Translations under genes and position numbers: made by a program
Shown here: in pieces, positions 4,604 to 17,749 of the stretch
Layout of the letters: every line of letters starts with the position of its first letter
Position numbering within the stretch: the first letter of the stretch is position 1
Virus record (IMG/VR): IMGVR_UViG_3300037234_000256
Span: 1 to 20,255 of that record
Source of the DNA: a virus
Strand: one strand, 5' to 3'
DNA: 20,255 nt
The notes under the pieces: model-generated
Seen by the model: only the letters and a program-made list of their open reading frames with translations
The model's database searches: none
What the model was told of the DNA's origin: nothing

Positions 4604-5041
4604 TCAGGCGTGTTTCAGTGTTTTCATGGCTTGGTAGAAGCCTTCTCTGAGAGCGAGTTCCTTACTGGGCACAGGTCGACGCCCCGAATTATCAGTCCTT
4701 TGCTCCCAGAACTCCATCCCAAGCTCTGCTTGTTCCTTTTTGATGACCAAGTGCGGCTGTATCCTTTTCAAGCATTCGAAAGCCTTATTTGAACTGACAG
4801 ACCAGTTGTAGTGCTCTCTCCTTGTGAAAAAGGAACCCTCAGTCATGGGTTTGTGGCTTATCGAACCACCGTATTCTTCCACAAGCATTTCCAGTACAGG
4901 AAGATGTGTGTTAGAAACCTGCACATGGAGCCTATACCAAACGGACACTCCACCGTTACGCCAATATCTCTTAGGCTTAGTTCTACTAATGACAATAGAG
5001 CCATCAGCATCTATAAGACCAGCCGCATAAGAATCATCCAT
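4604..5041 (-). CDS. LAGLIDADG homing endonuclease, single motif
   Basis: About 145 residues with one textbook motif near the N-terminus, YAAGLIDADGSIVIS, whose Asp residues include the metal-binding acid. One motif per chain means it should act as a homodimer, as I-CreI does. Further family-like parts are a strand RLHVQVSNT, a helix LEMLVEEYGGSI, and the C-terminal HYNWSVSSNKAFECLKRI with HLVIKKEQAELGMEFWEQR. An in-frame ATG lies four codons upstream (5053), inside the previous gene; I choose 5041 because of the TAATG overlap. It is free-standing in the head operon, not in a visible intron. It likely cuts a site at this locus in related phages lacking it. Confidence 0.9.
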   Translation of the reverse strand: MDDSYAAGLIDADGSIVISRTKPKRYWRNGGVSVWYRLHVQVSNTHLPVLEMLVEEYGGSISHKPMTEGSFFTRREHYNWSVSSNKAFECLKRIQPHLVIKKEQAELGMEFWEQRTDNSGRRPVPSKELALREGFYQAMKTLKHA

Positions 5042-5799
5042 TAGGCATTCCAATCCCTATTCGCCTCGACCAGAAGGTAGTCCACGTCCATTGTGGGCTG
5101 AGTTGCACCAACAGCCCCTAGACCACAGAAGGCTGCAAGGTCAGTTGTAGTAGAAATTGCCCCCTCCAGTGTCTTCAAAAGGTCTTCGTCAGCGTACCAG
5201 CGAGCCGTACCGTTGTTGTCGATTTCAAGTCTCAGTACCATGAACTCGCCAGCCACCATCACTACGCCAAGGTCATTGTCAGTGGTGTCTGTTGAAGCAG
5301 ACGTAGCCCCGCCGTTGTAGACAGCGTGCAGTTCGGTAGCAGAAGTCATCTCAGATTGGATGTAGAACCCGCACATATCCGAGGCAGTGTTTTCTATCGT
5401 GGTAACAGCCGTGACATCGAAAAGGTCGTCCTCAATGTCTACATCGTCACCGTTTACATCGGAAAAACCGACGAACATCACCCTGGTTGTGAGAGCGGCC
5501 ATGCGAATCCGAGCCTCAAGTACAAGCGTCCCCATGAGACCCACGTCGAACCCCACTGCGGTAGTGAGTGCTGCCGTGAACCCGTCTGTGTTGTCGGTTT
5601 CAAGCTGGAGCACACCGCTAAGGGCGTCAGTCTCCAAGAGGGTTTGCTGTGTATCTGTGGCAGCAATGCCGTCACCAACAAGTTTGAAATCAGCAGCATC
5701 AATCACTACCTTAGTCTCAGCATCTAGTCCCTCCTCGCCTCCGAAGAAGTCGTTGAAGAGGCGAATCCTTCCAACCGTACCCTGTCCTTTGATTGTCAT
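5041..5799 (-). CDS. Putative capsid decoration protein, paralog 2 (252 aa)
   Basis: Same length and architecture as the gene upstream, about two-thirds identical without gaps. Best conserved are GRIRLFNDFFGGEE, VGFDVGLMGTLVLE, LFDVTA(A/V)TTIENTASD, NGGAT.ASTDT.DNDL and the last 15 residues MDVDYLLVEANRDWNA. The most variable parts are residues 50-80, 101-123 and 201-240, likely surface loops. A ConA-like beta sandwich is the best guess from strand pattern. AGGAAAGAT precedes the ATG. The TAA stop overlaps the ATG of the LAGLIDADG gene (TAATG). Confidence 0.75.
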   Translation of the reverse strand: MTIKGQGTVGRIRLFNDFFGGEEGLDAETKVVIDAADFKLVGDGIAATDTQQTLLETDALSGVLQLETDNTDGFTAALTTAVGFDVGLMGTLVLEARIRMAALTTRVMFVGFSDVNGDDVDIEDDLFDVTAVTTIENTASDMCGFYIQSEMTSATELHAVYNGGATSASTDTTDNDLGVVMVAGEFMVLRLEIDNNGTARWYADEDLLKTLEGAISTTTDLAAFCGLGAVGATQPTMDVDYLLVEANRDWNA

Positions 5800-5846: not shown

Positions 5847-6605
5847 CTACGCATTCCAGTCTCTATTGGCCTCGACCAATAGATAGTCAACGTCCATCAG
5901 TTCCCGAGCCCCACTGACAGTGCCCAAGCCCACAACAGCCGCCACGTCAGTAGAAGTGCTGAGTGCCCCCGCCAGTGTCTTCACCACAACGCCATTGATC
6001 CACCACCGGGCGGTCCCATTGTTGTCCACTTCCAGCCTGAGAACGTCCCACTCGCCAGCTACAGCAACAACGTCCAGGTCGTTGTCATTAGTATCAGTTG
6101 AGGCTGCTGTGGCTCCACCGTTATAAATGGCGTGCCACTCGGTGCCGTAGGTCATGTCAGACTGAAGGTAGAACCCACAGATGTCAGAGGCAGTGTTCTC
6201 GATTGTAGTGGCGGCGGTAACGTCGAAGAGATGGTTTTCAATGCTCAGTGCATCCTGGTTGTCATCGGTAAAGCCCACGAAGACAACCTTGGTATCGAAG
6301 TCTGCGAAGCGTACCCGTGTCTCAAGCACCAGTGTCCCCATCAATCCAACATCAAACCCCACAGAGGTTACCAGGCAAGTGCTGTCTGCGTCAGTATCAG
6401 CAGACTCAATTTGGACAACCCCGCCGAGGCCATCCGAGTCCAGTGTGGTTATCTGCACATCGTTGTCAGCCAGACCCTCCCCGACGAGTTTGAAGTCCTT
6501 AGCGTCCACCACCACTTTGGCTTCTGCATCCAGGGCCTCTTCGCCGCCGAAGAAGTCATTGAACAGCCTGATCCGTCCAAGCCCGCTTTGTCCTTTTACA
6601 GTCAT
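5847..6605 (-). CDS. Putative capsid decoration protein, paralog 1 (252 aa)
   Basis: Beta-rich, Asp/Thr/Val-rich protein with no signal peptide. It opens with a conserved basic-hydrophobic stretch GRIRLFNDFFGGEEALDAE and has a concanavalin/LamG-like strand pattern near the end: GEWDVLRLEVDNNGTARWWI, then DVDYLLVEANRDWNA. The next gene is an ungapped paralog of the same length; my hand alignment gives about 170 identical positions of 252. Position just behind the coat gene suggests a shell-bound decoration or head-fibre role, which is inference. Start ATG follows GGAGG and overlaps the previous stop (ATGA). Confidence 0.75.
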   Translation of the reverse strand: MTVKGQSGLGRIRLFNDFFGGEEALDAEAKVVVDAKDFKLVGEGLADNDVQITTLDSDGLGGVVQIESADTDADSTCLVTSVGFDVGLMGTLVLETRVRFADFDTKVVFVGFTDDNQDALSIENHLFDVTAATTIENTASDICGFYLQSDMTYGTEWHAIYNGGATAASTDTNDNDLDVVAVAGEWDVLRLEVDNNGTARWWINGVVVKTLAGALSTSTDVAAVVGLGTVSGARELMDVDYLLVEANRDWNA

Positions 6606-6814
6606 TTTGCCTCCAGCAACTTTAGTTGCTTTTCCAATTCTCTGATTCTCGCGCCATAGGGCGCTGTTACCTGCCCCAAGTTATCGGGGTACCGAGGAAT
6701 CGCGGCAAGATTCTCTTCCCGCGTATCCTCAGTAGTCCCATTCAGGCTATGTACCACCCAACCTTTAGGTATCGGGCCATGAGCCTCTTTCCATGCCTCA
6801 CGCCTTGCGTTCAT
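6602..6814 (-). CDS. Degenerate HNH-type homing endonuclease-like protein, 70 aa
   Basis: Contains GPIPKGWVVHSLNGTTEDTR followed by EENLAAIPR, matching the central core of HNH_3-type endonucleases (P-x-G-x-V-V-H-H-I/L-N-G ... N/E-N-L). The usual second His of the V-V-H-H pair is Ser here, and the protein is only 70 aa, so nuclease activity is doubtful. The C-terminus is a short coiled coil, YGARIRELEKQLKLLEAK. Start ATG has GAGGGG upstream; the stop overlaps the next ATG (ATGA). It may be a remnant of a homing gene inserted after the coat gene, or a repurposed small protein. Confidence 0.65.
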   Translation of the reverse strand: MNARREAWKEAHGPIPKGWVVHSLNGTTEDTREENLAAIPRYPDNLGQVTAPYGARIRELEKQLKLLEAK

Positions 6815-6835
6815 GTAGCCCCTCGTTTATGTCAA

Positions 6836-7723
6836 CTACGAAGTTGGAGCAGTCGCGTCGCTCACAATTTTCTGCACCCAGCCGTAGGCCGCACTCGGTC
6901 GCTCACCGTAGGCGTACTCATCGTAGTGGTAAACGTGGTCTCCACCCCCACCACGCTTCTCGTTGCGAACAGACACGACTCTCGGCGCCCTGCCCTGAAC
7001 GAGGATGATGCCCTCCATAGCAAACACCCCACCGGTTGCATCATCGTTAGCGTCGATGGTAATGTTGCCGTCCTCGAAGACTTCCACCGACGCAATGGCC
7101 ATCAACATACCAGTGGTAAACACCCTGGCCGTTAGACCTTCCCCACTCATGTAGGTGCCGATGCCGGCTACCAACTCGTCGTATATGTCCTTGATCTGGA
7201 ATCCGTGCAGTACACTCCGGTATGGGGGCTTGGCGTTTTCGGTTGCGTTGCTTGAGATATTGGCCTTTGCAGCCGCAATGTGCCCTGTCGTCAGGGTACT
7301 ACCAGCACCGGGAGAGGCGGTTGTGGCACCGGTTGAGAAGATGGTCAGACCATCTTCATCCTTTTTGCGCTCGATTGCGTTCTGTGCCAGTCCACCGATT
7401 TTGCTAAAGCCCTTCCGGTTGATCCTTGCCTGGACCCTATCGGTCAAGAACGTCTCTATTCCGACCACGGTCGGGGTGATTATCTGCAAACTATCAACCA
7501 CCTGTTGGGGGTTATCGAGATCGGTGTTCTCGGTGACGGCCTGGGCTGTCATTTGGTCATAGGTGATTTCCTGCCAGGACAGACCAATTCCCTCTCCAAG
7601 TGTTTGCCTTTCGACAAGCTGGGGCATTACGCCCTCATATTCTCTGACTATCCTGGCCGAGCTGCGAATATCATCCAGAGAATCCGCAACAGAGCCGGTA
7701 GTCGTCCAACCAATGGGACTCAT
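6836..7723 (-). CDS. Major capsid protein
   Basis: A 295-residue protein right after the scaffold, with an excellent GGAGGAG ribosome site, as expected for the most abundant virion protein. Features typical of HK97-fold coat proteins: an N-terminal helical arm, a loop region with ENTDLDNPQQVVDSLQI followed by ITPTVVGIETFLTD, a spine-like helix with INRKGFSKIGGLAQNAIERK, an A-domain-like stretch with VFTTGMLMAIASVEVFEDGN, and a C-terminal strand with VVSVRNEKRGG. The size is normal for the fold. It would form the hexamers and pentamers of the shell. I cannot place it in a named subfamily without a search. Confidence 0.8.
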   Translation of the reverse strand: MSPIGWTTTGSVADSLDDIRSSARIVREYEGVMPQLVERQTLGEGIGLSWQEITYDQMTAQAVTENTDLDNPQQVVDSLQIITPTVVGIETFLTDRVQARINRKGFSKIGGLAQNAIERKKDEDGLTIFSTGATTASPGAGSTLTTGHIAAAKANISSNATENAKPPYRSVLHGFQIKDIYDELVAGIGTYMSGEGLTARVFTTGMLMAIASVEVFEDGNITIDANDDATGGVFAMEGIILVQGRAPRVVSVRNEKRGGGGDHVYHYDEYAYGERPSAAYGWVQKIVSDATAPTS

Positions 7724-7732
7724 AATCTCCTC

Positions 7733-8449
7733 CTAGTATGCATCTACTATCTTATCGTGCCTTTTCTTAGTCTCTGGGGTTACGGGGATCTGACCGGATG
7801 CAAACTTCTTCATAAAGCTCTCATCCGAATCTCCCCCTGCACCAGGACGGCTTGAATCAGGCCGTCTCGGTGTATTTACACTCTCGGGAGTCTGGAACTC
7901 TTTGGCTCTCGCCTGAGCATACTTCTCCATCCCCGCATCATCCTTGAAGACCACGAGGTCGTCCACGAATGCCTGTACTTGCGAATGGACAGTAGGGTCG
8001 GCCAAAGCGTACTTGATTGCCAGTTCCCAAGCCCTTATCCCATTTTCTCGTTCGTTGAGTGTGTCTTCCCATTTCCTCTGGTCACCAGCGAGCTTTTCAG
8101 CGTCCTGCCTGAGCTGAGTTACCCGCCGCCTTTCCTTCTGGAACTCGCGGGCCGGTGGGTCGTCTCCCCATGCCTCCAATTCCGCCGTTTCAACAATATT
8201 CAGAGCCGACTTCAATCTGTCGACTTCTCCCCTCGCGCTATCCCTCTCCTCGTAGATAGGAGTTATACGTTTGTCTACCGCAGACTGGATGTTCTCGTCT
8301 GTGGCCTTGGCCACCGCCAGTTGGAACTCCGGTCGGTCTTCTATCTTGACCTCGGGCTCAGGCGCTTCGGATGCCTCGTCTGGTGGTGTCTCAGGGGGTT
8401 CTACGGGCACTTCCGGTACTACCTCTTCCTTAACTTGTGTGTTTACCAC
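7733..8449 (-). CDS. Probable capsid scaffolding protein
   Basis: About 238 residues, directly before the coat gene, the usual place for scaffold. The composition fits: Pro/Glu/Val-rich disordered N-terminus (VVPEVPVEPPETPPDEASEA), a long charged coiled-coil stretch (about residues 60-145, e.g. REFQKERRRVTQLRQDAEKL), and a short C-terminal helix with basic residues (FMKKFASGQIP, then ETKKRHDKIVDAY) such as scaffolds use to bind coat protein. The frame is open to a TTG at 8461, but I choose the GTG at 8449 because GGAGG lies six bases upstream of it; the TTG would overlap its own site. The giant gene's TAA (8462-8464) lies just before. Confidence 0.7.
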   Translation of the reverse strand: MVNTQVKEEVVPEVPVEPPETPPDEASEAPEPEVKIEDRPEFQLAVAKATDENIQSAVDKRITPIYEERDSARGEVDRLKSALNIVETAELEAWGDDPPAREFQKERRRVTQLRQDAEKLAGDQRKWEDTLNERENGIRAWELAIKYALADPTVHSQVQAFVDDLVVFKDDAGMEKYAQARAKEFQTPESVNTPRRPDSSRPGAGGDSDESFMKKFASGQIPVTPETKKRHDKIVDAY

Positions 8450-8461
8450 GATTGCCTCCAA

Positions 8462-11400
8462 TTACTCCACGTGTAGTCCCATCAATCTATCCCAGGCAGA
8501 AGTACCAGGCACTTGCTGGGTGGGTAGTTGCTCAGTGGGCGCTTGCTGGGTAGGCGCTTGGGTGCGAGGCTGAGTCCTGCTAGATGACCGCTGACTTCTG
8601 ATGGACTTGTACCCATACCATTTCACAAGGATTTCATCAATCTCAGGGTACTTTCTCCTGTAACGCTTTCGCCTCTCGGCTTGGTTAGGCCCTTCTATTT
8701 CCCAGTAAGGCTTCAGAGCTGCAATAGCCTGTTGGTACTCGGCCATCAGAGGCCCCCACTCAGTTAATCCTGTGTTCCTGTCTACATAAGCCTCTTGAGT
8801 ATCACTCCACTGTTTCCTCAGACGCCCTTCCAGTACCTCTTGCTTATCCCAGTCCAGTACACCAGATGCCCTTTTCGCCTTATCAAAGGTCTCGTAGTAC
8901 TGCACCAACGCCCTCTTATTCGGGTCTGTCGGTAAGACGTCGGTCTCCTTGAACAACTGGAAGTCTATATCTACTTGGGATTTACGCGCTGACATCTCGC
9001 GCTTTAGCAGCGTGACTTCATCCCGAAAGGCATCAGCCTCCATCAACCCCTGCGCGAACTCAGAGACCAGCGCCTCTCCTCTAACTACCCTCTCCTTATC
9101 AATATCATCAAGCGTCGAAAAGCCTTCTGCCTTGAGCTGTTGCCGTTCTATGGCAGCCTCACTTCTCAAGCCCAACTCAGTTTGCAGTTCTACGTTGTTG
9201 GATAGTTCCCTTTTTTGCGAAGGTTCCAGGTCAGCCCAGGTTTCAACAGGGAGACCATTGACTTTCAGAAAACCGCTATCCCTGGCAACCCTATCCAGGA
9301 GGTTCATGGTTGTTTCTGCCCTGACATTTACACCGGTGGCCTGCACTGCCAAGCCTTTAATCCCCACCCTTTCCTCGCCTCTTGGGACAATCTCTTCAGC
9401 CCCCGGTATTTCCTGACGGAGCCATTCCCCTATAATGCCGCCTACTCCTATAGGCGCAAACATATCGTGTAGCAACTGACTTGTCCTGGAAATGACACCG
9501 CCAGGCCCAACATCATCTATAGGAGCACCCCAAAAGTTTGTGCCTGTTACCTGATTCGCCAGCGTCCTTACAGGGACACTTTCTCTGGAAGTAATGAAGT
9601 TGATAGGATCGAGCACCCGGAACGCCGTGTCCATCTGCCCGGCCAGGTCAAGAGTTATCTCCACATCCCCCCTACCTTTTATCGGTAAGGTAGGGGCAGC
9701 GAACTCCGTGTTATAACCATAGGGAAAAGGCCCATAGTTGCTCTTGCTTATGGGACTATACCTTTCGGATGGTAGCGGTTCCCCTGTAGAGGCGAAGTGA
9801 ACCACATTGGCAGTAGTAATCAAGAAAAGATAGACACCGATCCAGTGCTTTCGCCAGTAGCTCTTGTACGGGCCGTGAAAAGCACCTGTGGCCTGCCTTA
9901 GCAGACCTTCCGACTCACCTATCGAGAAGAACAACCTGCGAAGACTCTCTCTTAACACCCTGTTCTGAATAACACTTTGAGACGCCGGAATGGTCGAGTA
10001 TTTGGTGTTGGCAACTCTAGCAATCATTCCATTTATCTGTGCATCATTCAGTGAAGCATACTGACGGGCAATCATAGGAGCTATATTATTCTGAACATCC
10101 GTCATTATCGCAGCTGAGTAAACACCGTCAAAGAGACCACGCCTCATCGCACTTTCCAGATCGCCTATCAAACCGAGAAATCTCTTTCCCTTGCCGAGTA
10201 TCCCAGACTCCTTTGCTACCTGATGTACTAGCTTGTCCATGTCAGCAGGGAATATAGTTACATCCCTGAGAGACAGGCCAGCTCTACTGATGCCCTTGAA
10301 AGTGATGCCCGGTCTACCCTGAACGAGAGGTTCTGTGCTCTGGAGTTGCTTGGCAAGGCTCAGTCTTTTGGCAGGGCTAAAGTTAGCCCGCAAGACCTTC
10401 GCCACAGTTTGAGGGTACCTCGCCGGGGCCTTTATGGCTTCTATCGGCTGACCTGCCATTAGAGCATCAACGGATCTCGTCCAACTACCAGACCCAGCCC
10501 TCGTGAGGAAGTCTATCTGCTGGAAGAAGGACGCAAATAGCTTTGCCCTCTTGGGAATAAAGACCAGGGCGTCGATGATAGAAAGCGGGTCGATAGTCAG
10601 TCCTTTGACAGTGAACTTCCCCAGACTTGGCCGCTTCCCGTAGATATTTTCCAGAGCATTGGCTATCTTATCCGGGACAATCCACCTTCTTGAATACATA
10701 ATCGCTGGCTGTCCAGTAACGGGATCAGCAATAGCAAATGGCTTCCCCTCAAAGGCAGGCCCGACTTCAGGGACTCTCCACCCTTGGCGTATTGGGCCAC
10801 CATCATGGGGGCGGATCAACTCTTCACCCATACTCTTCAAGTGTGAGACGAGTTCCATCTGCTCTCGGTATTTAACCCCCTGCATTCGGGAAATACTCCA
10901 CTGCTGGTAGGGATTCCAGAATAGAGGCTCAAAACCAGCCGCTCTCATTTCCTCATAGGTAGCATTAACACGAGGTTTCTTGAAAGAAGGTGTTTTGACC
11001 AGGGGCCTACCTTGCACCACATCGGCAAAAGCACCCTCTGGCGGTTTCCAACCTCTGTAGAAGTAGTCCTCGACTGTAGCCATTTCAGGATCGAAGTCCA
11101 ATCTGGCAGACTGCTCCCAGTCGGTTAGGGCTCTTAACTCCTGATAGACTTCCTCAAGCCCTTCAGGGACTCGTACTGCCCCCGACTCTACTCCGCTAGG
11201 ATTGTGAAGGGCAGCATACAGCTCATCTAGTTTCTGGATATCTTGAGGACGTGGAATTAAATTATCCCTCCTCCATACCCCGATACCCTTTGCCTTTAGC
11301 TTCTTACCGCCCTCCTTGACAATAATATAAGAGCGGGTAGACTCATTGTTGATAGCACCCTCATGCAATACAAGAAGCCCCCGGTCTGGCCGTTCCCCAG

Positions 11401-13747
11401 GTGGTATCTTCTCTAATATCTCCCTAAAAATATCGTCTGGCTCCCTTGCCACAAGGTCTGTGGGCGGTTTCGGCGGTTTCGGGCCATCTGGTGCCGCAGC
11501 TTCAGTATGAGCAACCTTTGCATCTTCTGGAGGGACACTCTCTGGGGCAGTTCTTCCTTGCTCTTGGACCCCCTTAACCCAGGCTGCCCCCGCAGTAGAC
11601 GGAGGTTCTGGAGGTACCGCAGGCGGAGCGACCTCAGCAGGGACTTCTGGTGCCACTTCAGCCGAAACGACTGCTTCAACTGGGGCCGTCTCAGGGGCTG
11701 CCCTGTAGACCTTGAGCATTTCGTCTAGTTGAGATGTGGTGAATCGTGTCAAAGGGCCAGCCTTTTCCCCACCATGAAACGGCATACTGCGAAGACCTAA
11801 CTCCGACTCTACCTCTGCGATAGCACCTTGTAAGTCGTCTGGTGAAAGGCTCTCCACATCCTTTTGGGCTTCCAGCCTGGCCGCTTCAAGACGTAACGCC
11901 TCTTTTGTACCCGTGCCCGCAGGTAGTCTCCCCTTTGTTTCAAGTAGTCGGTCAATTTCCTCGCTTCGAGCATCACGCTGCGCCTGCTGGAGCTTGAGTT
12001 GGTCGTCCATACTGACCTGAGTAGGTCGACCCCGGCCAGGAGGTCTTACTTCTTCTACTCCCCCAAACATCCCAGGCTGTAGACCAGCTTCGGGTTCCCC
12101 TGGTATTTGCTGGGGCAATTCCGCAGCCGCGAACTCCTGCCGCATCTCCGTCAGGCGGGTTTGAGCCCCTTCTAGGTCAGCCCCGAAGAACGTACTGCCA
12201 GTGTCTGGATCGGTGAACAGGTAACCGGCCCCTTCTATCTTCTCAATGCCGGTATATTTCACCCCCAAGTCCTTGGCTATCTGCCTGCCGACAGCGTTAG
12301 TAGGCTTTTTAGGTGCTACAGCAGGTTTCAAGTCAGGGTACTCAGCTAGGACTTCAGGTGGGACGGGTTGACCTTCGGCAAGGGCTGTACGGATAGCTTC
12401 TCGATGATAGCCTTCACCTCGCAGAGATGCTTCTACCACCTCTTTTGCTACGACATTGCCACGCGCCTTTTCTGCTGCCACAAGCTCATCTACATGCTGA
12501 GGGATACTCTTTCCAACGGTCTTCTCATACCCGAGTTCATTAGATACACGGAACTCAGCCCTAGTCATCTGCCACGGCTGCTTGGCTGCTCCTCCACCAG
12601 GCACTCTCGGCATATCCGGAGGCAACCCACCTCCTGCCTGTGCTGCGGCTGTCTCGATTTGGGGAATTATCCTGTTCTCTACTTCACCAATGGTATCCGC
12701 AACAGCGTTCCTGACGGCCGTTTGCGTACCCCTCCTCTCTGCCAGCCTTCTCGTGAGATTATCTGTAGCTCTCTGAATAATCCATTGGCGGTCACCTACA
12801 ACCGCCCTGAATATACGATTTTGCGCCGGGGAACCCTTGAGACGACCCTGAGTAGCAATCCACTTGTCAAGACCAGCGTCCAACGCAACCTGTAAACCTT
12901 TACGAGCAGCCGCTGGTACACCTTTAGTCACTGGGATAACAATACCGTGCTTGACGACCGCTCCCACCGCTGCCTCAGCAGCAGCCGGAGGTGCCAATGC
13001 CGCCGCTGCAACTTCAGCCGCACCACCACGGAATCCACCTCTAGCAATTGCCGGTCTGAGAGCTTCCCTTGCTCCAGTAGCAGTCCCACCTACCGCAGTG
13101 AGACCAATCATTTCCACTGCTAGTTGGACAGGCACTGGTAACTCTCTGAATCTCTCCGCAGGCAATTGCCTTAGCTCATCCTGTATCTCCCATGCCTCTT
13201 GCCCGATGCGATCCATAGCTTCTTTTTGCTCAGGCGTTGCCCCAACACCCCACCGAGAGACACCCAAATCCTTCCATTCACGATCAAGTTGGGCCAGCCT
13301 AACAGACAGTTGACCCACATCGGATACACCAGTAACACCTGATGGCGCACCACGTAATCGTCTCTTTTCTACTTCCTCCGTTATCTGCCCTGTGACAGCA
13401 CCACCAAAACCCGCGAATGCCTCATCCAGAGCCATAAGTGCCGGGATAAAGACGTACTCTCCTAATTGCTGGGGCAATCGAGCTAAAGCGGCATGTACGC
13501 CCCTCGGTTCCTGTAATCCTGGGAAAAGGGTGGGTTCGGATGGTTGTGGGGGTTTAATTGGAGGTAGGAGCAAATCAGAAGGGCTGCGTTGCTCCGGCAT
13601 CCTCACATCAGTTTCGGGCTCTGGATGCAGGGCAAGTAGATTCTGCCAGGCATCAGGTTTGGGTTTGACCTCTAGTTGACGCCCGGTTTCCTCGATCTCG
13701 CCGGCGATATCCTCTATATTCTGTTGTCTCAGGTCTCTTGTCGTCAT
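8462..13747 (-). CDS. Giant phage head/ejection-type protein, 1761 aa
   Basis: Very long multi-part protein in the interval between portal and scaffold. Visible parts: a charged, Pro-rich N-terminus; Ala/Gly-rich hydrophobic stretches near residues 215-290; a segment HREAIRTALAEGQPVPPEVL (about 446-465), a motif style I associate with polyvalent phage proteins; YLFTDPDTGSTFF (about 510); a Pro/Ala/Val/Glu low-complexity linker (about 681-722); a long folded helical region with FFQQIDFLTRAG; a likely membrane-inserting segment WIGVYLFLITTANVVHFAST (about 1300-1320); a charged coiled region; and Thr-Gln-Pro repeats at the end (about 1726-1745). I infer an internal or ejected virion protein. No enzyme active site is certain. 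The start ATG lacks a ribosome site and touches a terminator-like hairpin. Confidence 0.85.
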   Translation of the reverse strand: MTTRDLRQQNIEDIAGEIEETGRQLEVKPKPDAWQNLLALHPEPETDVRMPEQRSPSDLLLPPIKPPQPSEPTLFPGLQEPRGVHAALARLPQQLGEYVFIPALMALDEAFAGFGGAVTGQITEEVEKRRLRGAPSGVTGVSDVGQLSVRLAQLDREWKDLGVSRWGVGATPEQKEAMDRIGQEAWEIQDELRQLPAERFRELPVPVQLAVEMIGLTAVGGTATGAREALRPAIARGGFRGGAAEVAAAALAPPAAAEAAVGAVVKHGIVIPVTKGVPAAARKGLQVALDAGLDKWIATQGRLKGSPAQNRIFRAVVGDRQWIIQRATDNLTRRLAERRGTQTAVRNAVADTIGEVENRIIPQIETAAAQAGGGLPPDMPRVPGGGAAKQPWQMTRAEFRVSNELGYEKTVGKSIPQHVDELVAAEKARGNVVAKEVVEASLRGEGYHREAIRTALAEGQPVPPEVLAEYPDLKPAVAPKKPTNAVGRQIAKDLGVKYTGIEKIEGAGYLFTDPDTGSTFFGADLEGAQTRLTEMRQEFAAAELPQQIPGEPEAGLQPGMFGGVEEVRPPGRGRPTQVSMDDQLKLQQAQRDARSEEIDRLLETKGRLPAGTGTKEALRLEAARLEAQKDVESLSPDDLQGAIAEVESELGLRSMPFHGGEKAGPLTRFTTSQLDEMLKVYRAAPETAPVEAVVSAEVAPEVPAEVAPPAVPPEPPSTAGAAWVKGVQEQGRTAPESVPPEDAKVAHTEAAAPDGPKPPKPPTDLVAREPDDIFREILEKIPPGERPDRGLLVLHEGAINNESTRSYIIVKEGGKKLKAKGIGVWRRDNLIPRPQDIQKLDELYAALHNPSGVESGAVRVPEGLEEVYQELRALTDWEQSARLDFDPEMATVEDYFYRGWKPPEGAFADVVQGRPLVKTPSFKKPRVNATYEEMRAAGFEPLFWNPYQQWSISRMQGVKYREQMELVSHLKSMGEELIRPHDGGPIRQGWRVPEVGPAFEGKPFAIADPVTGQPAIMYSRRWIVPDKIANALENIYGKRPSLGKFTVKGLTIDPLSIIDALVFIPKRAKLFASFFQQIDFLTRAGSGSWTRSVDALMAGQPIEAIKAPARYPQTVAKVLRANFSPAKRLSLAKQLQSTEPLVQGRPGITFKGISRAGLSLRDVTIFPADMDKLVHQVAKESGILGKGKRFLGLIGDLESAMRRGLFDGVYSAAIMTDVQNNIAPMIARQYASLNDAQINGMIARVANTKYSTIPASQSVIQNRVLRESLRRLFFSIGESEGLLRQATGAFHGPYKSYWRKHWIGVYLFLITTANVVHFASTGEPLPSERYSPISKSNYGPFPYGYNTEFAAPTLPIKGRGDVEITLDLAGQMDTAFRVLDPINFITSRESVPVRTLANQVTGTNFWGAPIDDVGPGGVISRTSQLLHDMFAPIGVGGIIGEWLRQEIPGAEEIVPRGEERVGIKGLAVQATGVNVRAETTMNLLDRVARDSGFLKVNGLPVETWADLEPSQKRELSNNVELQTELGLRSEAAIERQQLKAEGFSTLDDIDKERVVRGEALVSEFAQGLMEADAFRDEVTLLKREMSARKSQVDIDFQLFKETDVLPTDPNKRALVQYYETFDKAKRASGVLDWDKQEVLEGRLRKQWSDTQEAYVDRNTGLTEWGPLMAEYQQAIAALKPYWEIEGPNQAERRKRYRRKYPEIDEILVKWYGYKSIRSQRSSSRTQPRTQAPTQQAPTEQLPTQQVPGTSAWDRLMGLHVE
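8512..8571. repeat. Four tandem 15-base units in the giant gene
   Basis: Plus-strand units start at 8512, 8527, 8542 and 8557, e.g. CTTGCTGGGTGGGTA and CTTGCTGGGTAGGCG; the last is the most diverged. On the coding strand they give five-residue Thr-Gln-Pro units near the C-terminus of the 1761-aa protein (TQQAP, TEQLP, TQQVP). Confidence 0.7.
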
Positions 13748-13977
13748 ATAAAACCAAAAGAGGCGAAGCCAATTAAGACTCCGCCTCCGATTTCGGTCGG
13801 CCTGATATTCTGTTGTTAGCTCAGAGCCAAGGGCCTTTCACCCTTGGACATTCTCGCCGTATCCCTATATCCGTCTTTGGGTGAATCGCTCCACCCGACT
13901 AGCGTTCGGGGTAATAGGGCGTTATTACCTTGAGAACTCGGTGCACCTCCTAGCGTCTATCTTCCGCCACTCTGAGC
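13748..13977 (-). ncRNA. Candidate structured RNA or leader, 230 bases
   Basis: Longest gene-free stretch in the window. On the minus strand it holds, in order: an AGGAGGTG with no usable start after it; an outer pairing CCCTAT/ATAGGG (13914-13919 with 13863-13868) around two overlapping hairpins, CCCGA/TCGGG (13894-13910) and GGGTG/CACCC (13879-13896); a perfect 7-bp hairpin CCAAGGG/CCCTTGG (13827-13847); a 4-bp CCGA/TCGG hairpin (13787-13800); and the terminator hairpin at 13760-13787. No convincing protein frame. It does not match any riboswitch, tRNA or ribozyme core I can recall. Could be an sRNA ending at the terminator, a leader of the giant gene, or plain spacer. Confidence 0.4.
13750..13787 (-). 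terminator. Intrinsic-terminator-like hairpin with U tract
   Basis: On the minus-strand RNA, GAGGCGGAGUC pairs over all 11 positions with GGCUUCGCCUC (two G-U pairs) around a UUAAUU loop, followed by UUUUGGUUUU. On the plus strand the two wobble positions become A-C mismatches, so the stem is better in the direction of transcription. The U tract runs to within three bases of the next start codon. Confidence 0.65.
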
Positions 13978-14139
13978 CTATAGTTTCTCGCTCTGAATAC
14001 CTGTCTCTACACGATCCGGGTGGCCATCGACCATGATTATTGTAACACGGGAATGCGGGATGTGTCGAAGCTTACGTATCAGACTGCTCTCTTTGTCGCT
14101 GACGAACATCTTCTGGGTCCGTTCTGTTCTACTGCTCAT
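13978..14139 (-). CDS. Small hypothetical protein, 53 aa
   Basis: Read directly: ATG in an ATGA overlap with the 92-aa gene, TAG at 13978-13980. The first part is charged and helical (SSRTERTQKMFVSDKESSL, then IRKLRHIPHS), followed by a probable beta strand RVTIIMVDGHPDRVE and a short tail EKL. No family recognised. It is the last gene before the 230-base non-coding region. Confidence 0.6.
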   Translation of the reverse strand: MSSRTERTQKMFVSDKESSLIRKLRHIPHSRVTIIMVDGHPDRVETGIQSEKL

Positions 14140-15798: not shown

Positions 15799-17534
15799 CT
15801 ACCTAACCCCTTCAGTCTGTTCATAGCCCGTTGTCTGAGGTTCGGCTGGTCCTTAATCTGCCCTATCCTGGCAGTTGGGGTAGGCGGACCACCGGGTTGG
15901 GGTGTTGGTCCGGTAGGTTGCTGTTCTTGCGCCTGCTGTTGGGCGAGCTCTCTCTCAAGTATGTCAGCGTCCTCATCATCACCGTCAGCTCGCAGTGCTG
16001 ACAGAACTCTCTTGGCCATGATACCGAAGAACCCGTAGACCTTCTCACGGTCAATCTTGTCATCCTCAGCGTCAGTGTCCTGTACAAGATGGAACTCGTC
16101 CCTGATCGTCTCATCCGAAAGCAAGGGACGCCCGTTCGGCCCCACCGTCCTGGCAGTAGTGCCCATAGCGAGGTTAGTCTGCTGGTCTTGCAGGATGTTA
16201 GGTACTATCCTTGTATCGAACTGGAGGTCACCGGGGAGATCGCCTGGTTTCCTATCAAGACTGTACGGCACCCCTCGCCTATCGGTACCTGAGACAGTCA
16301 TACCCTTCGACTTGTCCAGAGCGTTGAACTGCCTGACAAACTCGTTACCAGCCCAGCTACGAGCCTTCTCGACCGTCTTGAGAAAGGGGAAAATAACCTT
16401 TAACGCCCCTTGGGTAAGCTGTTGTACAGTAACCCCGGCAGGAGCGCCTTGAGCCACACCATGGACTACCGCTGTCAGACCACCGATGCTGATTTTCCTC
16501 TGCACATTCTCCCAGAATAGTATCCCGTACCGAGGAAACTCTGGGTTCTGTGTCGGACTCAGACTTTCGCCTTTGCCTATGTCCAGCGCGATAATGCCAC
16601 CCTTTTGGCTCGGGTCCTGGTCAAAGTCTACCGCACTCCCTTGCAAGGTGCTATCGTAGGTAGACGTCATAGGCTGTTTTGCCGCCTTACCGAGCAAAGT
16701 CATCAGATAGCTACCAATACGCTCTTCAATCGGAATCAATAATCGGTCGTTGAATAGCAGGTCCTTACCCACATTCACCAGATCATCCCCACTCTCACTG
16801 ACCACAAACGGGCGGTTCCCCACAGGGAGTATCAACACTGGTAGATGGCCGATTCCATGACGTTCGGGAGGTTTAACCCAGTCCCCAACCGTTCCATCAG
16901 TATGGGTATACATGACCCCGCTATCTTCATCATCGAGAATATCGTGAAGGTCTAACTCACCCTTATTGTCCCCAGTAACCTCTTCCCCATACTCGTCAAG
17001 TACCGCTTCAACAGTAGTTCGACGTCGGTGAGATACCCACAGATTACCCTTTGCCCCGGGCCACCAGAGAGTTTGTCTTGGATCCCACGGCATCAGATCA
17101 GGGACCAGATCACCGTCTTCTTCATAGAGAATCACCCTCTGCGCTATCCAGCCACGGTTGACAGCGAACCAAGCCTGTTGACTCTGCCAGTTCGTAGCCT
17201 CCGATACAGCTGTAAGGTTCTGATCACTGATGGCAAAAAGCCCTTCAACAAACTGCTCGGCCTCTGACAGCTTCTTGCGCTTGCCCTTACTACCGTAGCT
17301 GATAGGTAGCTTGGTGAATATCTCTCCGTTTCCAATAATGTTAGTAGCGGTATCGACTAGCACGCCGGCATCATTGGAGGTGTAGGAGTCCCAGGCACCT
17401 TCCTTAGCCGGTATCTGGAATGCCTCTTCAATCATCCTCTGAGTAGCGTCCATACGGTCGTGGAGAGGCTGCAGGCGTTCCTGTGCCTTTTTCAGGTTCT
17501 GGTGCCAGGTACCGATATCACTGTCAAGTGCCAT
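15795..17534 (-). CDS. Portal protein
   Basis: A 579-residue protein of portal size (families usually about 400-750 aa), located just after the terminase cluster and before the head genes. It would form the dodecameric ring through which DNA enters and leaves the capsid. The N-terminus is a helical segment with paired charges; a mixed alpha/beta body follows, with portal-like stretches such as PDLMPWDPRQTLWWPG and HLPVLILPVGN. A long helix-rich part (about residues 255-400) includes an IGSYLMTLLGKAAKQP segment. From about residue 535 the tail is Gln/Pro-rich and probably disordered. Start: ATG with GGAGAGATAG upstream. The stop TGA overlaps the next start (ATGA). The call rests on size, composition and position rather than one diagnostic motif. 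Confidence 0.75.
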   Translation of the reverse strand: MALDSDIGTWHQNLKKAQERLQPLHDRMDATQRMIEEAFQIPAKEGAWDSYTSNDAGVLVDTATNIIGNGEIFTKLPISYGSKGKRKKLSEAEQFVEGLFAISDQNLTAVSEATNWQSQQAWFAVNRGWIAQRVILYEEDGDLVPDLMPWDPRQTLWWPGAKGNLWVSHRRRTTVEAVLDEYGEEVTGDNKGELDLHDILDDEDSGVMYTHTDGTVGDWVKPPERHGIGHLPVLILPVGNRPFVVSESGDDLVNVGKDLLFNDRLLIPIEERIGSYLMTLLGKAAKQPMTSTYDSTLQGSAVDFDQDPSQKGGIIALDIGKGESLSPTQNPEFPRYGILFWENVQRKISIGGLTAVVHGVAQGAPAGVTVQQLTQGALKVIFPFLKTVEKARSWAGNEFVRQFNALDKSKGMTVSGTDRRGVPYSLDRKPGDLPGDLQFDTRIVPNILQDQQTNLAMGTTARTVGPNGRPLLSDETIRDEFHLVQDTDAEDDKIDREKVYGFFGIMAKRVLSALRADGDDEDADILERELAQQQAQEQQPTGPTPQPGGPPTPTARIGQIKDQPNLRQRAMNRLKGLGR

Positions 17535-17749
17535 CTATCTCTCCTATAATACCTCCGACAGACATTGCACCTTCACCCTCGCAATGAGCACAAGAAAAGA
17601 GTATCATCAACTCTCCGCTACCAGGAATCCCAACGTGAAGGAAATGGAATGGGCAGTCCTGCATTGGGCAACCGTCGACGAAGACGCCCCGACATGGCTC
17701 ACATCGTAGGATTTCAGTATCCAGTGCCATCTAAATCTCCTATAGACAT
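17514..17749 (-). repeat. Diverged direct repeat of a gene-junction cassette
   Basis: Two copies read on the minus strand: 17749-17710 (40 bases) and 17565-17514 (52 bases, with an extra 12-base GTCGGAGGTATT). Both run ATGTCT, then ATAGGAGA..TAGATGGCACT, then six to seven matching codons of the new gene. The cassette encodes the C-terminal tail of the upstream gene, the ribosome site and the first residues MALDxxI of the downstream gene. Confidence 0.7.
17524..17730 (-). CDS. Zinc-ribbon-like mini-protein, 68 aa, second copy of junction
   Basis: Begins MALDTEILRCEPCRG, then DGCPMQDCPFH and SCAHCEGEG: at least three Cys pairs, so one or two metal sites are possible. It ends SVGGIIGEIDGT, matching the end of the preceding 68-aa protein (SIGDLDGT), and its start MALDTEI matches the portal start MALDSDI. 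It overlaps the portal gene by 11 bases; TATAGGAGAGATAG within its last codons is the portal ribosome site. Same length as its upstream neighbour but low similarity outside the ends. Function unknown. Confidence 0.7.
   Translation of the reverse strand: MALDTEILRCEPCRGVFVDGCPMQDCPFHFLHVGIPGSGELMILFSCAHCEGEGAMSVGGIIGEIDGT

Follow-up and report, generated by a model that had tools for sequence, protein, structure and literature searches.

What is the function of the long gap in front of the giant gene of this phage? The window, that is, the whole stretch of DNA that was analysed, comprises 20,255 nt (IMG/VR record IMGVR_UViG_3300037234_000256). All of its called genes lie on the minus strand, and the gap is therefore read from 13977 to 13748. 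It separates a 53-aa ORF from a 1761-aa ORF and, at 230 nt, is the longest of the window's 28 junctions. The other 27 range from -32 to 58 nt (the runner-up), in agreement with a previous sequence-only reading that had called the gap by far the longest. The same reading had described the region as non-coding and structured, and had suggested a phage sRNA, a leader that regulates the giant gene, or a packaged RNA. The gap and its downstream neighbours are:

13748-13977, minus strand: non-coding gap, read here as a putative leader of the giant, scaffold and capsid genes (longest junction, no codon signal, whole-gap z of -3.65)
8462-13747, minus strand: 1761-aa giant gene, preceded by the leader (relatives found)
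6836-8461, minus strand: genes for a 242-aa putative scaffold and the 295-aa major capsid protein, 3' of the giant gene (position, capsid profile)

The giant gene is followed by the scaffold gene with a gap of 0. The capsid protein was assigned by profile (phage head protein gp7 3j40, E 2.7e-5; also major head protein families), and the position of the 242-aa protein points to a scaffold role. Pfam matches mark LAGLIDADG and HNH endonucleases, possibly homing endonucleases, among the minus-strand genes beside the structural genes (4604-5053 and 6602-6814). Two adjacent 252-aa proteins (5041-5799 and 5847-6605, minus strand) are clearly similar by eye, an apparent tandem duplication. A 35-nt direct repeat (17514-17548 and 17710-17744, 83% identical) lies across the start sites of the adjacent portal gene and a 68-aa ORF.

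By codon statistics, the best minus-strand frame of the gap scored 0.07, compared with 0.29 ± 0.13 for the window's real genes and -0.15 ± 0.15 for off-frame readings. There was no codon signal in any frame, which speaks against a lost coding frame within the gap and bears out its description as non-coding. The sequence-only reading could recall no matching RNA class; likewise, Rfam gave no useful match to the gap at gathering or permissive thresholds. A search of the window for tRNA and tmRNA yielded none. Similarity searches of phage and plasmid records with the gap returned nothing of note. Scans of IMG/VR and GTDB, in which the gap was presented as a pseudo-peptide and six degenerate patterns were run at once, returned no close match.

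The transcribed strand of the whole gap folded better than expected (z = -3.65; 0/1000 dinucleotide shuffles as good), the opposite strand with z = -1.4 only. Without the terminator at its 3' end, the remainder (13789-13977) gave z = -1.7 (56/1000 shuffles as good). For the closed 5' domain (13816-13977) z was -2.8 (8/1000), and for the middle of the gap (13868-13950) it was -0.25. Two coding stretches of the window, 6602-6835 (z = -3.7) and 7733-7960 (z = -3.8), show excess folding equal to that of the gap for their composition. The impression of a structured RNA therefore rests mostly on the terminator.

The serial stem-loops drawn in the sequence-only reading were upheld in so far as several helices are probable (each about 0.8-1.0), namely GCTCAGAG/CTCTGAGC, TGGCG/CGCTA, GGGTG/CACCC, CCAAGGG/CCCTTGG and the terminator, but the fold as drawn is mostly not the predicted one. 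Its outer CCCTAT/ATAGGG stem had a pairing probability of 0.04, the 7-bp GGTAATA hairpin 0.4 and the CCCGA/TCGGG helix about 0.01. The closing helix pairs 13977-13970 with 13826-13819 at a probability of about 1.0; upstream sequence, when included in the fold, competes with it. It delimits the following domain:

13819-13977, minus strand: orphan 5' domain with a multibranch fold and the closing helix GCTCAGAG/CTCTGAGC (pairing probabilities; z of -2.8 for 13816-13977)

A single-sequence model of this domain (R1) found no homologue among 130 related loci. Riboswitches are usually laid out in this way, with a multibranch domain ahead of a terminator. We nevertheless regard a ligand-binding riboswitch, a self-splicing element or a packaged RNA as highly improbable: Rfam held no match even at a permissive threshold, the 5' domain is seen in this phage alone, the middle of the gap is without excess folding, and splice-compatible frames were not seen. 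Nothing supports the packaged RNA that had been among the earlier suggestions.

The single strongly non-random feature of the gap is its terminator, the sequence of which is established (GGAGGCGGAGTC-TTAATT-GGCTTCGCCTCT, then TTTGGTTTT; 12 pairs):

13750-13788, minus strand: intrinsic terminator, 12-pair stem at 13788-13759 and U-rich tail to 13750 (pair count, z, energy)

It has the most pairs among the 26 terminator-like sites of the window and the best energy (-20.8) among the sense terminators. Stem and tail together gave z = -5.4, which substantiates the terminator-like stem noted earlier at the end of the gap. The tail ends 2 nt upstream of the ATG of the giant gene. Unlike most genes of the window, the giant gene has no Shine-Dalgarno sequence at its ATG.

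We then compared the junction with those of related phages. IMG/VR contains 48 relatives of the giant protein. The nearest share only about 60-67% identity with it across the core of the protein, and the genomes are mosaic. Searches via the portal protein or a 379-aa protein gave no relatives. Where the upstream junction of the giant-gene relatives is visible, it measures at most about 115 nt, and none has a gap or RNA of the 230-nt type before the giant gene. The sequence-only reading had made its case depend on the presence of the sequence in related genomes; the giant-gene relatives lack the gap and have no detectable homologue of the 5' domain. By that standard, the sequence comparison speaks against an element conserved at this position, tempered by the divergence and mosaicism.

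A search with the capsid protein gave 80 more loci, with capsid identities of up to 78%. The giant-scaffold-capsid synteny is common among the relatives, and in many of them the gap is found one gene later, after the giant gene and directly before the scaffold gene. Mosaicism relative to the window is strong in loci L058-L086, in which the capsid is up to 78% identical and the upstream giant genes are mostly unrelated by sequence. At several loci the best sense promoter-like site lies in the pre-scaffold gap, often with a strong terminator downstream of it, and the order promoter then terminator recurs in many of the relatives.

About a dozen relatives have a conserved leader at this place, with a boxA-like core, TTAACAACTGAATAA, and a covarying terminator hairpin ~30 nt downstream. 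The order is promoter, core, small hairpin, terminator hairpin with an inner stem, Shine-Dalgarno sequence and scaffold ATG, and the core starts approximately at the transcription start. The hairpin covaries. In ten aligned leaders, 12/13 pairs show two-sided changes; the covariation score was 0.67, compared with 0.26 for shuffled and at most 0.19 for slid alignments, and 83.5% of the cells were paired (shuffled, 61.6%; slid, 50% at most). Covarying pairs, which the sequence-only reading had named as support, thus occur one gene further on, in the leader before the scaffold gene of the relatives.

A covariance model built from the relatives' leaders (R2) recovered locus L060 as an independent member (E 1.1e-7). 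Over whole contigs it gave a single match (E ≤ 0.01) in nearly every phage that has the leader; one contig had a second, marginal match. R2 is a concrete RNA family with about a dozen members, in phages without a cultured representative here. A terminator was present at 11/12 loci with the core and at 20/54 without it (Fisher P 0.0008), a figure that is biased because most of the seed leaders were noticed via their terminators. Relatives without the core often have a promoter alone (L059, L070, L073 and L083). The core matches the boxA consensus GYTCTTTAANA at 7-10/11 positions in 12 relatives; the Escherichia coli rrn leader, fetched for comparison, contains TGCTCTTTAACAATTTATCA.

Other arrangements are found at the same place. 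Two loci (L019:11627-11810 and L032:12362-12560) have a second type of leader, consisting of a TTGACA-17-TACATT/TAGAGT promoter and a strong terminator, followed by the scaffold gene. These two share common sequence, including CTTAGCCGARCA and GCGAAGGC, with a mean column identity of 79%. This leader (CTTAGCCGARCARCC) was also considered as a wider family; the likeness is real between those two, and the wider scan gave unrelated-looking matches only. The pre-scaffold gaps of L008, L016, L021 and L033 contain small cysteine-pair (zinc-ribbon-like) frames, and that of L002 an HTH-like frame (by eye). The pre-scaffold gap of the relatives looks like a variable accessory site.

The window leader contains the shared core as CTAACAACAGAATAT, 32 nt before the terminator. 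The corresponding features are:

13804-13819, minus strand: boxA-like leader core CTAACAACAGAATATC (motif built without the window, positional P, best R2 match)
13787-13800, minus strand: possible small hairpin CCGA-CCGAAA-TCGG between core and terminator (read from the sequence beside the relatives' leaders)
13715-13730, minus strand: second, weaker core copy (GAGACAACAGAATATA) within the opening codons of the giant gene (third-best sense motif site, 10.5)

The core motif was built from 15 relatives with the window left out. It ranked 13819-13804 as the top site on both strands of the window, and the score of 17.9 (next site, 10.6) falls within the leave-one-out range of true members (10.1-24.5). 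The distance from the start of the core to the base of the terminator stem at 13787 is 32 nt, which is the right spacing: it is 25-32 nt in the relatives, except in L060. With positions restricted to the terminator spacing of the relatives, P was 0.0002 for a 16-mer motif and 0.005 for a 23-mer motif that takes in the poorly matching 5' flank of the window copy. The 23-mer was tried first and ranked the window site fourth; the shorter core was used afterwards. Since the 16-mer was delimited after the window match had been seen, the P value of 0.005 is the safer figure.

R2, which was built without the window, gave its best window match at 13821-13750 (7.8 bits, E 4.1, not significant) and a second one at 13736-13705 (E 7.3). 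The window core with its 5' flank matches GYTCTTTAANA at 6/11 positions (P 0.10) and falls short of the consensus. Because of these E values and the deviating flank, we regard the window copy as a probable, not a secure, diverged member of the capsid-leader family. It also differs from the relatives in standing one gene earlier, before the giant gene, and in that no Shine-Dalgarno sequence follows the leader. The relatives, too, have a small hairpin at the position of CCGA-CCGAAA-TCGG. Its pairing probability in the whole-gap fold was 0 because the terminator stem extends into it, and it is therefore a transient candidate only. The second core copy is a direct repeat of the first, weak alone (13/1000 shuffles as good). 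An insertion footprint was considered for the repeat and abandoned: it is weak alone and was later explained as two copies of the core.

Could the gap be plain punctuation? In that case an accessory insert (the 53-aa ORF and spacer) would end in an ordinary terminator, shielding the giant and capsid genes from transcription that arrives from upstream; the core would be there by chance, and there would be no regulated read-through. Should the window copy be no more than spacer and terminator, it would be punctuation of the ordinary kind. The neighbouring junction of the relatives, with its variable small ORFs and strong terminators, would fit, as would a 5' domain without relatives and the R2 E value of 4.1 in the window. 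However, with no clear promoter between the terminator and the ATG, the giant and capsid genes would be starved of transcripts, and the core match with its spacing has P values of 0.0002-0.005. We find this explanation unlikely, but it deserves to be taken seriously.

Two features upstream of the core bear on where transcription might begin:

14039-14068, minus strand: promoter-like site TCGACA-18-TACAAT, its second hexamer preceded by TG (score 11.85)
13978-14139, minus strand: 53-aa ORF adjoining the gap on its upstream side, of ambiguous coding status (codon score 0.11)

The codon score of the 53-aa ORF falls between the real and off-frame values, and our searches gave no relatives of it. 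Among the sense promoter-like sites of the 20-kb window, the one at 14068-14039 scores highest (11.85, compared with 11.71 and 11.45 for the next two; 2% of shuffles as good), but the total number of such sites is at chance level and this one is of ordinary quality. Unlike in the relatives, it stands about 220-250 nt upstream of the core. That one region is bounded by the window's best sense promoter-like site and its best sense terminator would suit an autonomous phage sRNA of ~280 nt, transcribed from this site to the terminator and acting on other RNAs or proteins. The better folding of the transcribed strand, and z of about -3 for 14032-13750, point the same way. Yet the 5' domain has no homologue anywhere searched, the promoter-like sites of the window occur at chance number, and the relatives conserve the core and terminator, not a body. 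Furthermore, a terminator that abuts a start codon is better suited to a leader. We therefore hold the candidate sRNA to be quite improbable.

Of the three earlier suggestions, a leader regulating the giant gene is partly supported, and best so, because the terminator stands at the ATG and the core 32 nt before it, in the order and spacing of the relatives' leader; the giant-gene relatives without the gap speak against it. We give about even chances to the view that the gap is a diverged attenuator/antitermination RNA leader that precedes the giant, scaffold and capsid genes and contains its own transcription stop. We infer from the sequence comparisons the kinship of the window copy to the relatives' leader, recognition of its core as a boxA, and all regulation. 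Polymerase would come from the promoter-like site at 14068-14039, or read on from the portal genes, and would transcribe in turn the orphan 5' domain, the boxA-like core and the terminator. By default, much of the polymerase would halt at the terminator, giving an RNA of ~280 nt if it starts near 14032. An antitermination complex might form on the leader RNA, with host NusB/S10 at the boxA-like core and perhaps a phage protein at the hairpins. Polymerase bearing this complex would pass the terminator into the giant, scaffold and capsid genes. The closing helix of the 5' domain ends at the start of the core, and it is therefore conceivable, as a speculation, that the domain masks the core.

More tentatively, a broad group of uncultured phages may carry a nut-like antitermination switch in the head module, of which the window would have a relocated, diverged copy before its giant head gene. 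In 20 related contigs, no Q-family antiterminator scored over the family cut-off (there was one sub-threshold match, and the window is a fragment) and no NusG paralogue was found. A nut-like leader of this make-up (boxA-like site, small hairpins and intrinsic terminator) is not catalogued in Rfam, from which the relatives' leader is absent. Antitermination leaders with box elements are known chiefly for early genes of the lambda type, for rRNA operons and for a small number of cellular genes. If true, a conserved leader of this type before capsid genes would suggest that in many environmental phages capsid expression is gated or tuned during transcription elongation.

In its proposed action, the leader resembles lambdoid late promoter modules or nut-type leaders, a likeness short of established membership in either. 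The nut sites of lambda N consist of boxA-boxB and serve early genes. They resemble the present leader in that small hairpins and a terminator come after a boxA-like core; here, in contrast, the hairpin loops vary between phages and the leader precedes capsid, not early, genes. The put RNAs of HK022 mediate antitermination for which boxA is not needed. They are likened here by layout: two small leader hairpins, with loops that are sometimes alike (L080).

The lambdoid PR'-tR' arrangement that works with Q (phage 21, lambda), described for phage 21 (PMC6606751), is matched at several related loci by a promoter, a short leader, an intrinsic terminator and late structural genes. In the window, the terminator of such a layout is clear, and 14068-14039 is the best promoter-like site, of chance-level quality overall. 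Lambdoid Q loads on a promoter DNA site and, in contrast to the proposed mechanism, does without a boxA in the RNA, and the capsid leader lies inside the head gene cluster rather than at its start. For suhB, a BoxA has been described in the mRNA leader, where it binds the NusB/S10 complex and concerns Rho-dependent termination (consensus GYTCTTTAANA; PMC5725501). The relatives' core comes near to this consensus (7-10/11), as in the rRNA and suhB leaders, whereas the window copy has 6/11. In addition, conservation in the present leaders runs 3' into ACTGAATAA, and an intrinsic terminator comes next, in contrast to the Rho-dependent termination at suhB. In the Caulobacter gene transfer agent, the protein GafZ loads at a promoter DNA element and the terminator consists of repeats after the first gene; the part of that account drawn on here describes no boxA leader (PMC11150451). 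The likeness lies in the arrangement: according to the same part, the structural gene cluster of this phage-like element stands behind a terminator and is released by antitermination with NusA, NusE and NusG (PMC11150451), much as we propose for the giant, scaffold and capsid genes.
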